In this document: piece by piece, positions 27,803 through 32,405 of the stretch
Layout of the letters: each line of letters starts with the position of its first letter
How positions within the stretch are numbered: position 1 is the stretch's first letter
Source of the DNA: Myxococcota bacterium
GTDB lineage: Bacteria; Myxococcota_A; UBA796; CAJQPC01
Direction: 5' to 3'
DNA length: 41,480 nucleotides
NCBI GenBank assembly: GCA_023150845.1
Contig: JAKLKD010000027.1
Location: forward strand, 1-41,480
Notes under the pieces: model-generated
What the model was told of the DNA's origin: nothing
Seen by the model: the letters and a program-made list of their open reading frames with translations, nothing else
The model's database searches: none
Made by a program: the position numbers and the translations under genes

Positions 27803-28144
27803 ATGCCCCTTACCCTCGTGTTGCTGTTGCTGAGCGCTTGTGATGAGCCGACGCCCGCAGAGAGCGCCGCCCCGCCGCTCTGCGAGACCGGACTCGACGT
27901 CACCTGGGACGGCTGGGCCGCGGGCTTTATGCTGAGCCAATGCCAGCCTTGCCACGCAAGCGCGGCGCCGAACCGCTACGGCGCGCCGACCTCGATCACC
28001 TTCGACACCTTGGAGGAGTGCCGGGCCCAGGCTGGCGCCATTGAGGACGCCGTGCTCACCCGGGGGTCGATGCCCCCCGCCGGAGGGATCACCGAGGACG
28101 AGCGCGCGCTCCTCGCCCGCTGGCTGGAGTGTGGCCTGCCCTAA
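27803..28144 (+). CDS. Small c-type-haem lipoprotein, copy 1
   Basis: The 113-residue protein starts with a short signal peptide and a lipobox (LLLLSAC, Cys13). One haem-binding motif C47-Q-P-C-H51 follows, then a C-terminal MPPAGG segment, whose Met may be the axial haem ligand, and a closing WLECGLP. Length and layout fit a single-haem cytochrome c-like lipoprotein. It is paralogous to the gene at 32055: both have the lipid Cys at residue 13, the haem motif at 47-51, the same spacing to MPP, and a shared T-W-D-x2-x-A/G-G-F motif. The start has AGGAGG-type sequence before the ATG at 27803. Frame upstream of this ATG is open but lies in the promoter. It leads the group of exported proteins and may carry electrons to or from them. 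Confidence 0.8.
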   Translation: MPLTLVLLLLSACDEPTPAESAAPPLCETGLDVTWDGWAAGFMLSQCQPCHASAAPNRYGAPTSITFDTLEECRAQAGAIEDAVLTRGSMPPAGGITEDERALLARWLECGLP

Positions 28145-28213
28145 ACTTTCTCGCCCTGGGCGCTGATTCGCCTTTCAGGAGCGGATGTCCGGCGTGTCCC
28201 TCAAGCACGGCGC

Positions 28214-28219
28214 TATCAT
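28214..28219 (+). promoter_or_regulatory. -10-like hexamer TATCAT upstream of the Tyr-rich lipoprotein gene
   Basis: It sits in the 104-base gap between 28144 and 28249, 29 bases before the ATG. A second promoter here would let the lipoprotein, DUF1588-like and DUF1501 genes be expressed apart from the first haem lipoprotein. Confidence 0.3.
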
Positions 28220-28248
28220 GTGCTCGCGCCAAGCCGTCTGGAGGCACC

Positions 28249-29190
28249 ATGATCTTCGTGTGGATGTTCGCCTGTCAGCCCGAGCCGACAGAGGTGACCG
28301 AGCCTGAGCTCACGCCGTCGCCCTACATCGTCGAGGAGGACGATCCTCCGGTGCCTGCCCTCACGAACGAGCAGGTCGGGGACGCCATCGGGGACGCCGT
28401 GAACCGGCTCTTCGAGTTCAACGCCGCCCCGGTCGTGCGCGCGTACAAGGCCGCCGCCGACACCACCGACGCGGCCTGCCCCGACTACTACAACGACGGC
28501 ACGAACACCTACTGGTACGACTACTGCTGGACCGAGTCCGGCACCTACTACGCGGGCTACGGCTTCTTGTACGAGTACCAGAACCTCGACGGCGGCGACG
28601 GCTACCTCTACAACGGCGACTACTTCTACCTCGTCGCCGACGTCACCAACGCCGCGGGCCACACCTTCTCCGGCAGCGGCGCGGCCTACGACGTGGTGCT
28701 GACCCACGAGGGCAGCGACACCAGCGCCCCGCACACGGTCTCTTACAGCGTCATCCAGGGCGTCTTCGCCTATGACGGCCCCGAGGTCGCGGGCACCTGG
28801 ATGACCGAAGGGGTCACCCCAGACCTCACCCTGTCTGTGTACGATGTGCCCGAGGCCACCTCGCCCTACTACTTCGGCCAGTACCTCACCATTCAGGGCG
28901 GCGTGAGCGGCCTCGGCGGCGACCTGGGCACGGTCATCTTCGACGGCGCGATCATCTTCTCGGAGATGATGGGCTCCACCTGCACCCTGGAGCCCTCGGG
29001 CACCATCTCCGCCCGGGACAACGCGGGCCAGTGGTACGACGTGCTCTTCGACGGCCCCACGGAGTACGGCGAGGCCGTTGACGCCGACCTCTGCGACGGC
29101 TGCGGCCAGGTCTGGTACCGCGGCGAGCCTCTGGGTGAGGCCTGCGTCGACTTCTCGCACCTCCTCGACTGGAGCGGCCGCCCATGGTGA
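28249..29190 (+). CDS. Tyrosine-rich lipoprotein of unknown function
   Basis: The 313-residue protein begins MIFVWMFACQPEP, a very short signal with a weak lipobox (MFAC), so it is probably a lipoprotein. An acidic, Pro-rich linker follows to about residue 45. The remaining domain is strikingly rich in Tyr, Gly and Asp (for example CPDYYNDGTNTYWYDYCW, YYAGYGFLYEYQNLDGG) and looks all-beta. Paired cysteines occur near 80 and 92 and again near the end (DLCDGCGQ). I do not recognise the family. It has GGAGG four bases before the ATG at 28249, and the frame extension to 28129 is not needed. The last codons overlap the next gene by 7 bases, which ties it to the DUF1588/DUF1501 genes. A surface or matrix role is possible but unproven. 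Confidence 0.72.
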   Translation: MIFVWMFACQPEPTEVTEPELTPSPYIVEEDDPPVPALTNEQVGDAIGDAVNRLFEFNAAPVVRAYKAAADTTDAACPDYYNDGTNTYWYDYCWTESGTYYAGYGFLYEYQNLDGGDGYLYNGDYFYLVADVTNAAGHTFSGSGAAYDVVLTHEGSDTSAPHTVSYSVIQGVFAYDGPEVAGTWMTEGVTPDLTLSVYDVPEATSPYYFGQYLTIQGGVSGLGGDLGTVIFDGAIIFSEMMGSTCTLEPSGTISARDNAGQWYDVLFDGPTEYGEAVDADLCDGCGQVWYRGEPLGEACVDFSHLLDWSGRPW

Positions 29191-30779
29191 CCCTCTTCAC
29201 GATCCTCATGGCCTGCGGCGCCGCCCCTGAGGAGCTCACCGACGATTCCTTGCCGGAGATGGCGCCCAGCGCGCTGCTCACGCGCATGAGCCTCGACCTG
29301 CGCGGCCGCCGCCCGAGCCCGGATGAGCTCGCCCGGGTCGAGGCCGACCCCGCCGCATTAGACGCGCTGCTCGACGAGATGATGGCCGATCCCGCCTTCG
29401 GCGGGCAGGTCCGCGCCCTCTTCTCCGAGATCTATCGCACACAGACGGAGTCCTACTACGTCTCGGCGAACTCCTACGGCATCACCGACAGCGCGGCGTT
29501 CTTGGCCGCGGTGGGCGACGAGCCCCTGCGTATCCTCTCCACCGTCGCTGAGGAGGACCTGCCCTGGACCACCTTGGTCACCGCCGACTGGACCATGGCG
29601 AACGAGGTCTTGGCCCAGGCCTGGCCCCTGGACTACTCCGGCGAGGGCTGGCAGAAGGCCCAGTACAACGACGGGCGCCCGGCGGCGGGCATCCTGAGCA
29701 CAAACGCGATGTGGTGGCGGTATGTGAGCACCGACTTCAACGCCAACCGCGCCCGCGCCAACGCCGTGAGCCGCATCTTCTTGTGCAACGACTACCTCTC
29801 CCGCCCCATCGACTTTGACCGCAACGTCAACCTGCTCGATCAAGAGGCCGTGGAGGAGGCGCTGCAGACGAACCCGGCCTGCGTGAACTGCCACCAGTCG
29901 CTGGATCCTTTGGCGAGCTACTTCTGGGGCTTCTACTACTACAACTACACCGACGCCGACGAGGCCCGGGTGTACCACCCCGAGCGTGAGCTGCTCTACC
30001 GCACCTACACCGGCATCGCGCCGTCCTACTTCGGTGAGCCCGGCTACACCCTGGAGGACCTCGGCCGCCAGCTCGCCGGGGACAACCGCTACGTCGAGTG
30101 CGCCGTCGAGCAGGTCTACGAGGGGCTCTTGCGCCGGGACAGCGCGCTCGCCGACCAAGACAGCCTCACCGCCCACCGCGAGGCGTTCTTGGCCGGTGAC
30201 CTCACCCTGCGGTCGCTCATCCGATCTGTGGTGAATGACCCCTACTACCGCGCCGGAGACACCGACGACGCGGGCGCCATCCCCAAGAAGATGGTCACCC
30301 CGGCGCTCCTCGCCAGCCAGATCGAGGCGCTGACGGGCTACCGCATGTCGCTCTACGGCTTCGATCTGATGACGACGGACACCTACGGCCTGCGCACCTT
30401 GGCCGGCGGCGCCGACGGCTTCAACGTCACCAAGAGCGCCACCTCGCCGAACACGACCCTCGTGCTCGTGCAGGAGCGCCTCGCCGAGGCCGCCGCCTGG
30501 TACGCCGTCTCCCGGGATCTGGCGGGCCCCGTCGGCGAGGGCCAGCTCCTCACCGTGGACCCCGCGGCCACACCCGACACAGACCGCGCGGCGATGGTCG
30601 CGCAGATCCAGGCCCTGCACCGTCTCATCTTCGGCACGACCGTCGCCGCCGATGGTGAGGAGGTCACCGCCAACCTCACGCTCTGGACCGATCTGTACTC
30701 GGTGGAGCGTGACCCCATCGACGCCTGGGCCGGCCTCGTCGCCGTCCTGCTCCGCGACCCCGACCTTCTGTTCTACTGA
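29184..30779 (+). CDS. Exported DUF1549/DUF1588-like protein with haem motif
   Basis: The 531-residue protein starts with a short lipoprotein-like signal (LFTILMACGAAPEE, Cys11). Near residue 30 it has LLTRMSLDLRGRRPSPDEL, the hallmark of DUF1549-type domains of planctomycete and myxobacterial exported proteins. The middle holds a single C233-V-N-C-H237 followed by QSLDP, the pattern of DUF1588. The C-terminal part (about 330-531) is helical and less conserved. Such proteins typically pair with a DUF1501 or DUF1552 protein, and here a DUF1501 gene starts seven bases after the stop. The function of these families is not established; redox chemistry at the haem is a reasonable inference. It overlaps the upstream lipoprotein gene by seven bases. 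Confidence 0.8.
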   Translation: MVTLFTILMACGAAPEELTDDSLPEMAPSALLTRMSLDLRGRRPSPDELARVEADPAALDALLDEMMADPAFGGQVRALFSEIYRTQTESYYVSANSYGITDSAAFLAAVGDEPLRILSTVAEEDLPWTTLVTADWTMANEVLAQAWPLDYSGEGWQKAQYNDGRPAAGILSTNAMWWRYVSTDFNANRARANAVSRIFLCNDYLSRPIDFDRNVNLLDQEAVEEALQTNPACVNCHQSLDPLASYFWGFYYYNYTDADEARVYHPERELLYRTYTGIAPSYFGEPGYTLEDLGRQLAGDNRYVECAVEQVYEGLLRRDSALADQDSLTAHREAFLAGDLTLRSLIRSVVNDPYYRAGDTDDAGAIPKKMVTPALLASQIEALTGYRMSLYGFDLMTTDTYGLRTLAGGADGFNVTKSATSPNTTLVLVQERLAEAAAWYAVSRDLAGPVGEGQLLTVDPAATPDTDRAAMVAQIQALHRLIFGTTVAADGEEVTANLTLWTDLYSVERDPIDAWAGLVAVLLRDPDLLFY

Positions 30780-30786
30780 GGTGCCC

Positions 30787-32058
30787 ATGTTCAACCGCCG
30801 ATCCTTACTCAAGGCCTCGGGCGCGGGGCTCCTCGCCGCGGGGCTCCCCGTCCCCTACACGGCCGCCGCCAACCCGCTCACGAGCGGCAAGCTCAAGTTC
30901 TTGTTCGTCTTCGCGGGCGGCGGCTGGGACACCACCCGCGTCTTCGCCAGCGAGTTCAGCAACCGCAACGTCGACATGGAGTCCGACGCCGAGCGCGCCT
31001 CGGCCGGGGATCTCCGCTGGGTGAGCCACTGGAGCCGACCGTCCGTAGACGCCTTCATGCGGGCTTACGCCAATGAGATCGCCATCGTGAACGGCATGAT
31101 GGTGCGCTCGATCTCCCACGAGATCTGCACGCTCATCGCCATGACCGGCACTACGGCCTCGGGCGCGCCGGACTGGCCGGCCATCTTGGGGGCCAACAAG
31201 CAGGCCGAGTACATCATCCCGCACATCGTGCTCTCTGGGCCGTCGTTCCCTGGTGATCTCGGCGTCGCCGTCGCCCGCACCGGCGGCGCGGGGCAGCTCG
31301 ACGCGCTCATCTCGGGCGACGTGTTCACGAGCCTCGATGTGCCCGTGACCGGCCCCAACCCCGCCGCTGAAGCCGTCATGGACCGTTACCTCGCCCGCCG
31401 GGTCGAGGCGAAGGCCCTGGGCGCCCGCAGCGCCGCGGAGATCCGCCTCACCTCCGATCTCAACCGCTCGTTTGACCAGGCCCGACGCCTCAAGGAGATG
31501 CAGTACCTCCTGAGCCTCAGCGCCTCGGGCGACCTCGCCAGCCAAGGTGCCATCGCCATCGAGGCCCTGGGCATGGGCGTGAGCCGCTGCGCGACCATCG
31601 CGCATTATGGCACACAGACGGGCTGGGACACCCACGCCGACAACGACGCCCAACAGGCCGTGCTCTGGGAGCAGCTCTTCGCGGGCCTCACCCAGATCAT
31701 GCTCACCCTGGAGGCCACGCCGGGCGAAGAGGCCGCGTCGTTGGCTGAAGAGACCGCCGTCGTGGTGCTCTCGGAGATGGGCCGCACCCCGCAGCTCAAC
31801 GGGTTCAACGGCAAGGACCACTGGCCCTACACGAGCGCGATGGTCATCGCCCCCGGCGTGCGCGGCGGCCAGGTCTACGGCGCGTTTGACGACCAGTTCT
31901 ACGGCGTGCCCGTAGACACCACGAGCGCCGAGACGGACGAAGACAACGGCCAGATCCTCTCCGCCGAGGCCTTAGGCGCCACGCTCTTGGCCTTGGCCGA
32001 CATCGACCCCAACGAGCACATGCAGGGGGTCGATCCGCTCATGGGGATGCTCCTGTGA
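30787..32058 (+). CDS. Tat-exported DUF1501 family protein
   Basis: The 423-residue protein begins MFNRRSLLKASGAGLLAAG, a classical twin-arginine signal (RRSLLK), so it is exported folded and probably with a cofactor or metal. The body is DUF1501 (alkaline-phosphatase/sulfatase-like fold). It has GWDTH (279-283), SEMGRTP (329-335) and KDHWPY (343-348), followed by VRGGQVYGAFD. These His and Asp residues could form a metal centre. The GAGG of the stop region of the previous gene (30778-30781) serves as the ribosome site for the ATG at 30787. The stop overlaps the GTG start of the next gene (GTGA at 32055-32058). DUF1501 proteins commonly sit with DUF1549/DUF1588/DUF1800 partners, as here. The substrate is unknown. 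Confidence 0.87.
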   Translation: MFNRRSLLKASGAGLLAAGLPVPYTAAANPLTSGKLKFLFVFAGGGWDTTRVFASEFSNRNVDMESDAERASAGDLRWVSHWSRPSVDAFMRAYANEIAIVNGMMVRSISHEICTLIAMTGTTASGAPDWPAILGANKQAEYIIPHIVLSGPSFPGDLGVAVARTGGAGQLDALISGDVFTSLDVPVTGPNPAAEAVMDRYLARRVEAKALGARSAAEIRLTSDLNRSFDQARRLKEMQYLLSLSASGDLASQGAIAIEALGMGVSRCATIAHYGTQTGWDTHADNDAQQAVLWEQLFAGLTQIMLTLEATPGEEAASLAEETAVVVLSEMGRTPQLNGFNGKDHWPYTSAMVIAPGVRGGQVYGAFDDQFYGVPVDTTSAETDEDNGQILSAEALGATLLALADIDPNEHMQGVDPLMGMLL

Positions 32059-32405
32059 TCAGCCTGAGCCTCATGTTGACGCTCCTCGGCTGCGGCGACG
32101 AGAAAGACGCCGCCGTCGAGGACACCGGCCCCTGTGCTGACGCCCCGGTGCTCACCTGGGACAACTTCGGCGCGGGGTTCATCACCCAGGAGTGCCAGTC
32201 CTGCCACGGATCCGACGTGCTCAACCGCCAGGGCGCCCCAGAGGACGTACACTTTGACTCCAGAGAGGAGGTCTGGGCCCAGGCCGACCGAATCTTGGCC
32301 CGAGCGGGCGGTGAGGAGCCCTCGATGCCCCCCTTCGGCGGCGTCGAGGCGGACGACCGGACACGCCTCACGCTGTGGTTGACGTGCGCTGAGCCGGGTA
32401 CCTGA
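32055..32405 (+). CDS. Small c-type-haem lipoprotein, copy 2
   Basis: The 116-residue protein starts with a signal and lipobox (MLTLLGC, Cys13), followed by an acidic linker (EKDAAVEDTG). The single haem motif is C47-Q-S-C-H51, and the C-terminus carries MPPFGG and a terminal WLTCAEPGT. It is a paralogue of the 27803 protein, with the key cysteines at the same residue numbers. The GTG start overlaps the DUF1501 stop by four bases, so its translation is coupled to that gene. It closes the five-gene group and converges on the M48 peptidase gene. Likely role: a membrane-tethered single-haem electron carrier for the DUF1588/DUF1501 pair (inferred). Confidence 0.8.
   Translation: MISLSLMLTLLGCGDEKDAAVEDTGPCADAPVLTWDNFGAGFITQECQSCHGSDVLNRQGAPEDVHFDSREEVWAQADRILARAGGEEPSMPPFGGVEADDRTRLTLWLTCAEPGT

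Follow-up and report, generated by a model that had tools for sequence, protein, structure and literature searches.

A conserved B-C-D-cytochrome gene module with DUF1501 and PSCyt/PSD-type proteins in Myxococcota

What is encoded by a tight group of genes for haem-motif lipoproteins that surrounds a DUF1501 gene in a Myxococcota bacterium, and does it represent an undescribed system? The group lies in a DNA stretch of 41,480 nt (contig JAKLKD010000027.1, hereafter the window). A sequence-only reading had described it as a DUF1501 partner and a DUF1549/DUF1588-like protein bracketed by two paralogous haem lipoproteins, and had proposed that the products form a surface redox complex. The redox-complex idea is plausible from the sequence. 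Here we ask what the conserved unit is, what its proteins are likely to be, and which functions are compatible with them.

Layout of the five-gene set

All five genes are on the plus strand. The first one, CYT1 (27803–28144, 113 aa), is predicted to encode a mono-haem c lipoprotein of the class I type and is an additional copy that precedes the core module. The core consists of B (28249–29190, 313 aa), a Tyr-rich lipoprotein; C (29184–30779, 531 aa), a cytochrome-type lipoprotein with a PSCyt2-PSD4-PSCyt3-PSD2 arrangement; D (30787–32058, 423 aa), a DUF1501 protein with a Tat signal; and CYT2 (32055–32405, 116 aa), again a class I-type mono-haem c lipoprotein and the core cytochrome of the conserved module. 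CYT1 and B are 104 bp apart, B and C overlap by 7 bases, C and D are separated by 7, and D and CYT2 overlap by 4, so neighbours among the last four genes either overlap or lie at most 7 bases apart, as first described. As the set is bounded on its two flanks by minus-strand genes for an amidase and an M48 peptidase, the transcription unit probably consists of exactly CYT1-B-C-D-CYT2. Neither a terminator nor a convincing promoter was found at the set. Between these boundary genes, neither a beta-barrel gene nor a multihaem gene is present, and the window's own operon has no glycan-binding gene. Genes for cytochrome c assembly are present in the same genome.

In CYT1 the first Cys is residue 13, the CxxCH motif occupies residues 47–51 and MPP is at 90; CYT2, which has a GTG start, shows Cys13, CxxCH at 47–51 and MPP at 91. 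The lipid Cys, the haem motif and the later MPP had been read correctly from the letters. As single sequences, both proteins gave weak matches to class I cytochrome c, below the Pfam cut-off. The CYT2-type profile aligned over its full length with c551, c6 and c552, and C47, C50, H51 and M91 were invariant among 52 CYT2 relatives. The CxxCH motif was kept in all 81 small cytochromes, which also retained one His and one Met; loss of the motif in orthologues, which would have spoken against the original reading, was not seen. By sequence, we assign the small cytochromes to class I with an invariant axial Met. Together with the motif of C, three haem motifs are present, in agreement, at the level of sequence, with the claim of at least three haems.

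Protein B has the lipobox MIFVWMFAC and a Tyr content of 8.3%, as expected of the Tyr-rich lipoprotein noted before, and matched no family in Pfam or NCBIfam. Besides the lipid Cys9, six cysteines (77, 93, 245, 282, 285 and 299) are conserved in 49 relatives. A faint match of the B profile to the T4 gp5 spike was taken as a repeat-driven chance hit.

A separate observation concerns the signals of B and C, at 28249 and 29184. The lineage has very short lipoprotein signals, with the lipobox Cys at residue 7–12 and no charged n-region (for example MILFLLAC and VILLLAC), and such signals were also seen at L070, L083, L096, L102, L135 and other loci. At some genes an in-frame stop lies just upstream, so the signal cannot be longer. 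Among 552 predicted genes in the neighbourhoods, 41 showed this pattern; for the internal-Met controls the count was 6 of 2951.

Conservation of the core and origin of the second cytochrome

We surveyed module order at 80 loci of public genomes and in 20 further regions, and B-C-D-cytochrome was the dominant order. Among the complete modules, i.e. those not cut by contig ends (n = 69), C preceded D in 66, either directly or with one cytochrome between them. A small cytochrome was present in 52 of the 69 and followed D directly in 43, whereas the search, within its limits, gave none in 17. With an improved B profile, B adjoined C on the upstream side in 76 of 87 non-edge cases. Median intergenic gaps were near zero. 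Because the same order recurs in dozens of genomes, the set is not a chance arrangement; the conserved unit is the four-gene core of B, C, D and one cytochrome, which is inherited as a unit.

The module is also multiplied within genomes. Four paralogous modules occur in the window's own genome, and the DUF1501 subfamily was found in 53 of 58 related genomes, with up to 15 copies. Across 237 sampled genomes of the phylum, members of the C subfamily were concentrated in the window's taxonomic order, with scattered copies elsewhere. Module-bearing genomes are mostly metagenome assemblies; the one cultured isolate, Paraliomyxa miuraensis SMH-27-4 (L076), carries a full B-C-D-cytochrome set. We also noted a variant module (L005, 9210–10199; L130, L066 and L122), in which a fused cytochrome of ~320–340 aa with an extra C-terminal part lies between C and D.

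For 37 complete modules, the pairwise distances of D correlated with those of C (r = 0.96), B (0.92) and the cytochrome (0.73). None of 500 permutations reached these values, which are uncorrected for shared ancestry; shared ancestry of whole modules can give such correlations without physical contact. B was the least conserved member, with a mean identity of 26% compared with 41% for C and D.

Loss of gene order in relatives, the other outcome that would have spoken against the original reading, was not seen for the core, whose order is conserved. Most modules have only one small cytochrome, and among the sampled modules a cytochrome on both sides was seen in the window only. In the sister genome the same layout extends over two contigs (cytochrome-B-C on L191 and D-cytochrome on L194) with 87–88% DNA identity. 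The double cytochrome is common only to the window and this sister species, and bracketing is not the defining feature. The syntenic CYT1 orthologue in the sister genome (G001) is 82% identical; otherwise the nearest relatives of CYT1 were cytochromes of a different module type (48% for L126, 45% for L085 and L069), while those of CYT2 were the cytochromes of L132, L142 and L048. Since the two resemble cytochromes of different module types more than one another, a recent tandem duplication was rejected, and CYT1 was probably recruited from a module of another type.

Predicted properties of proteins D and C

Protein D matched DUF1501 (PF07394) with 85.4 bits against a cut-off of 27 (E = 5.8e-24). 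It carries the Tat motif NRRSLLK, and the twin-Arg motif was present in 97 of 105 D proteins; the description of a Tat-exported DUF1501 protein is borne out at the sequence level. The predicted structure of D (pLDDT 93) gave 116 PDB matches at E ≤ 1e-3 in Foldseek, the best being steroid sulfatase (1p49, E = 1.3e-6). The best 50 of these 116 were all sulfatases, LtaS/EptA/YejM-type proteins or phosphonate hydrolases, with probabilities of 0.99–1.00, and sulfatases, LtaS, EptA/MCR-1 and YejM were named among them. The model of D has the fold of the alkaline-phosphatase/sulfatase superfamily (Foldseek probability 1.00), with TM-scores to known enzymes of only about 0.4 and identities of about 10%. 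A profile search of the PDB with D gave no match, so the assignment rests on the model and Foldseek. Profile-profile comparison with sulfatases was weak (P = 0.011), the alignment being compatible with homology and not significant. The DUF1501 partner postulated earlier is present, and its proposed role as a catalytic or binding partner can be refined by this fold.

Next, we compared the conserved residues of D with those of the superfamily. Seven residues of polar or metal type (D48, H111, D281, H283, E330, R333 and H345) were invariant in 68 of 68 sequences, and S108 was kept in 67. The D, H and E residues among them are placed like candidate metal ligands. The residues at the nucleophile site differ from those of the superfamily, and the formylglycine signature [CS]xPxR is absent from the window's D. 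This motif was found in 10 of the 68 relatives, at other, scattered positions. In an alignment made by hand, which we regard as a lead, the sulfatase nucleophile falls at or next to the invariant H111, with S108 nearby. With the signature missing at the expected place and only a candidate nucleophile, D could be inactive. It might then be a catalytically dead protein of the alkaline-phosphatase fold whose part is to bind a glycan, sulfated or phosphorylated, that C then oxidises, and the conservation of Ser108 and His111 where the signature would be expected fits such a role. However, full invariance of the seven residues is typical of an active site, and their equivalents are present in the DUF1800-linked DUF1501 proteins of the same order. 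We consider a dead D improbable.

Protein C had been read as DUF1549/DUF1588-like with its own CxxCH. This was confirmed, and Pfam added PSD4 and PSD2: PSCyt2/DUF1549 (6.9e-8) and PSD4/DUF1592 (1.6e-5) were above the cut-off, and PSCyt3/DUF1588 (2.1e-4) and PSD2/DUF1585 (2.7e-4) were just below it. Of 62 C relatives, all had PSCyt2 and PSCyt3, 58 had PSD2 and 55 had PSD4. The lipobox Cys is Cys11. The single CxxCH (233–237) lies within the PSCyt3 match (168–247) and was kept in 102 of 102 C proteins. The predicted structure (pLDDT 94.5) is nearly all helix and had no solved counterpart in the PDB by Foldseek (best E 0.46); the matches to flippases and P450s (E ≥ 0.46, TM about 0.1) were discarded as noise. 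In the profile search of the PDB, one match fell below 1e-3, a cytochrome c555 trimer, and it covered only the haem-motif stretch.

No conserved second axial haem ligand was found in the alignment of C relatives. As the sole invariant His is H237 of the CxxCH itself and Met reaches at best 73% in any column (138, where the other residues are mostly V, I or L), C itself is unlikely to supply a fixed second ligand. From the sequences, this suggests that the haem of C is catalytic and does not serve purely in electron transfer.

These observations bear on the possibility that the set is an extracellular electron-transfer relay, in which three mono-haem lipoproteins carry electrons across the cell surface and D is merely a structural scaffold. 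Three haem motifs in adjacent lipoproteins, and the nature of class I His/Met cytochromes as electron carriers, would suit a relay. However, each haem member has one CxxCH, without the beta-barrel and multihaem genes of a porin-multihaem conduit, most modules have a single small cytochrome, C lacks the conserved second ligand, and D keeps its invariant residues of metal-ligand type. A relay thus appears quite unlikely.

Another possibility is that DUF1501 and PSCyt/PSD proteins form a non-enzymatic surface apparatus for the assembly or export of an exopolysaccharide or lipoprotein, the haem being a redox sensor or a structural addition. DUF1501 pairs elsewhere with DUF1800, including with chitin synthase genes (PMC5122149). 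Such pairs also occur in relatives of the window's genome; they are haem-less, yet have the DUF1501 motifs in common with D, so the haem is not essential to DUF1501 function in general. This pairing speaks for an assembly role. So would a faint resemblance of C residues ~316–368, in the PSD2-like part, to the helical domains of phycobilisome linkers and of the RsaA N-terminus (LPS-binding), which are assembly or anchor domains; this similarity was noted by two methods and is not significant (E 0.25–2.7). Against such a role, the haem motif is invariant in the 102 C proteins, more than an optional sensor would predict. Altogether we hold an assembly apparatus to be doubtful, though less so than the relay or the dead D. 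The link between C and DUF1800 is itself loose: none of 62 C members matched PF08811, and the profile-profile comparison (hhalign, P = 0.03) gave an alignment compatible with homology that is not significant.

Known relatives and a possible glycan-related function

In the literature searched, no paper assigned a function to DUF1501, DUF1800 or PSCyt/PSD proteins. The PSCyt/PSD proteins of PVC bacteria share with C the Pfam domains PSCyt2, PSCyt3, PSD2 and PSD4 and a CxxCH in the PSCyt3 part, and they too occur in many copies per genome, beside neighbour families without known function and glycan-binding domains (PMC5615132). The Myxococcota C differs in being a compact lipoprotein whose operon also encodes lipoprotein B, a new family dedicated to the module, and a small class I cytochrome as a protein of its own. 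DUF1501 genes of PVC bacteria are likewise found in clusters of exported proteins without known function (cited in PMC4452313); partners like B and the small cytochrome are not mentioned in the part of that description compared. In the DUF1800-DUF1501 pair (PMC5122149), a Tat-exported DUF1501 protein with the same motifs adjoins a larger protein, but the aligned DUF1800 proteins have no haem motif and C has no Pfam DUF1800 match. The original claim of an undescribed system holds in that no function has been assigned, and is limited by the clusters already described, also without function, in PVC bacteria. The B-C-D-cytochrome module is real, conserved and unexplained, and belongs with the known PSCyt/DUF1501 clusters rather than in a new category.

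In Verrucomicrobia, PSCyt proteins carry the glycan-binding domains PA14 and Laminin_G_3, and their genes adjoin sulfatases (PMC5615132). Around the Myxococcota modules, these domains are in separate neighbours and not fused: a PA14-like lipoprotein follows the cytochrome at 13 loci (PA14 was detected in 6), and a Laminin_G_3 protein adjoins some modules. MopE/beta-helix proteins, some with weak chondroitinase-B matches, also lie beside some modules.

A larger neighbourhood recurs around one module type (L006, L093, L100, L105, L108, L110, L114, L128 and L143). It contains a MopE/beta-helix protein and a right-handed beta-helix protein nearby, mostly divergent, and at most of these loci B is preceded by a lipoprotein of ~215 aa and the cytochrome is followed by the PA14-like lipoprotein. 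The window's order is rich in sulfatase-family genes (13–54 per genome in its own genome and 28 relatives), and one of them directly follows a module (G002:C45, L133).

We tentatively favour, at somewhat less than even confidence, an oxidative, glycan-processing surface system made of the four-gene extracytoplasmic module, joined here by an additional cytochrome that would have come from a second type of module. D would be exported folded by the Tat pathway, probably with a bound metal, and would act as a hydrolase or transferase of the alkaline-phosphatase superfamily on a glycan ester. C, lipid-anchored beside D, would carry out an oxidation of that substrate at a c-type haem whose sixth coordination site is open. 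Electrons would be transferred between C and the respiratory pool of the periplasm by the small His/Met cytochrome, and the fast-evolving, Cys-rich B may recognise the substrate or hold the complex on the surface. Several observations weigh against this reading: DUF1501 proteins paired with haem-less DUF1800 have the motifs of D, D could be inactive and its TM-scores to known enzymes are low, the window's operon has no glycan-binding gene, and a small cytochrome was missing from 17 of the 69 complete modules in the range searched. Of these elements, the gene order, domains, haem motifs, modelled fold of D and correlated divergence are direct results of the analysis, from which we infer surface location, haem loading, complex formation, the open haem site, substrate class and catalysis. 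A more specific version, an undescribed, lineage-expanded surface enzyme system in which an open-site haem c protein of new fold and a sulfatase-fold DUF1501 protein act jointly on one extracellular glycan while the fast-evolving B tunes each copy to a different substrate, we regard as rather unlikely.

Environmental bacteria have many PSCyt and DUF1501 proteins. The compact module provides a minimal gene set with clear limits, assigns a fold to DUF1501 and yields a confident PSCyt model without a solved counterpart, and the cultured relative Paraliomyxa miuraensis offers a host for functional work. Should the module indeed oxidise or de-esterify glycans, the turnover of environmental polysaccharides would gain a haem-based route.
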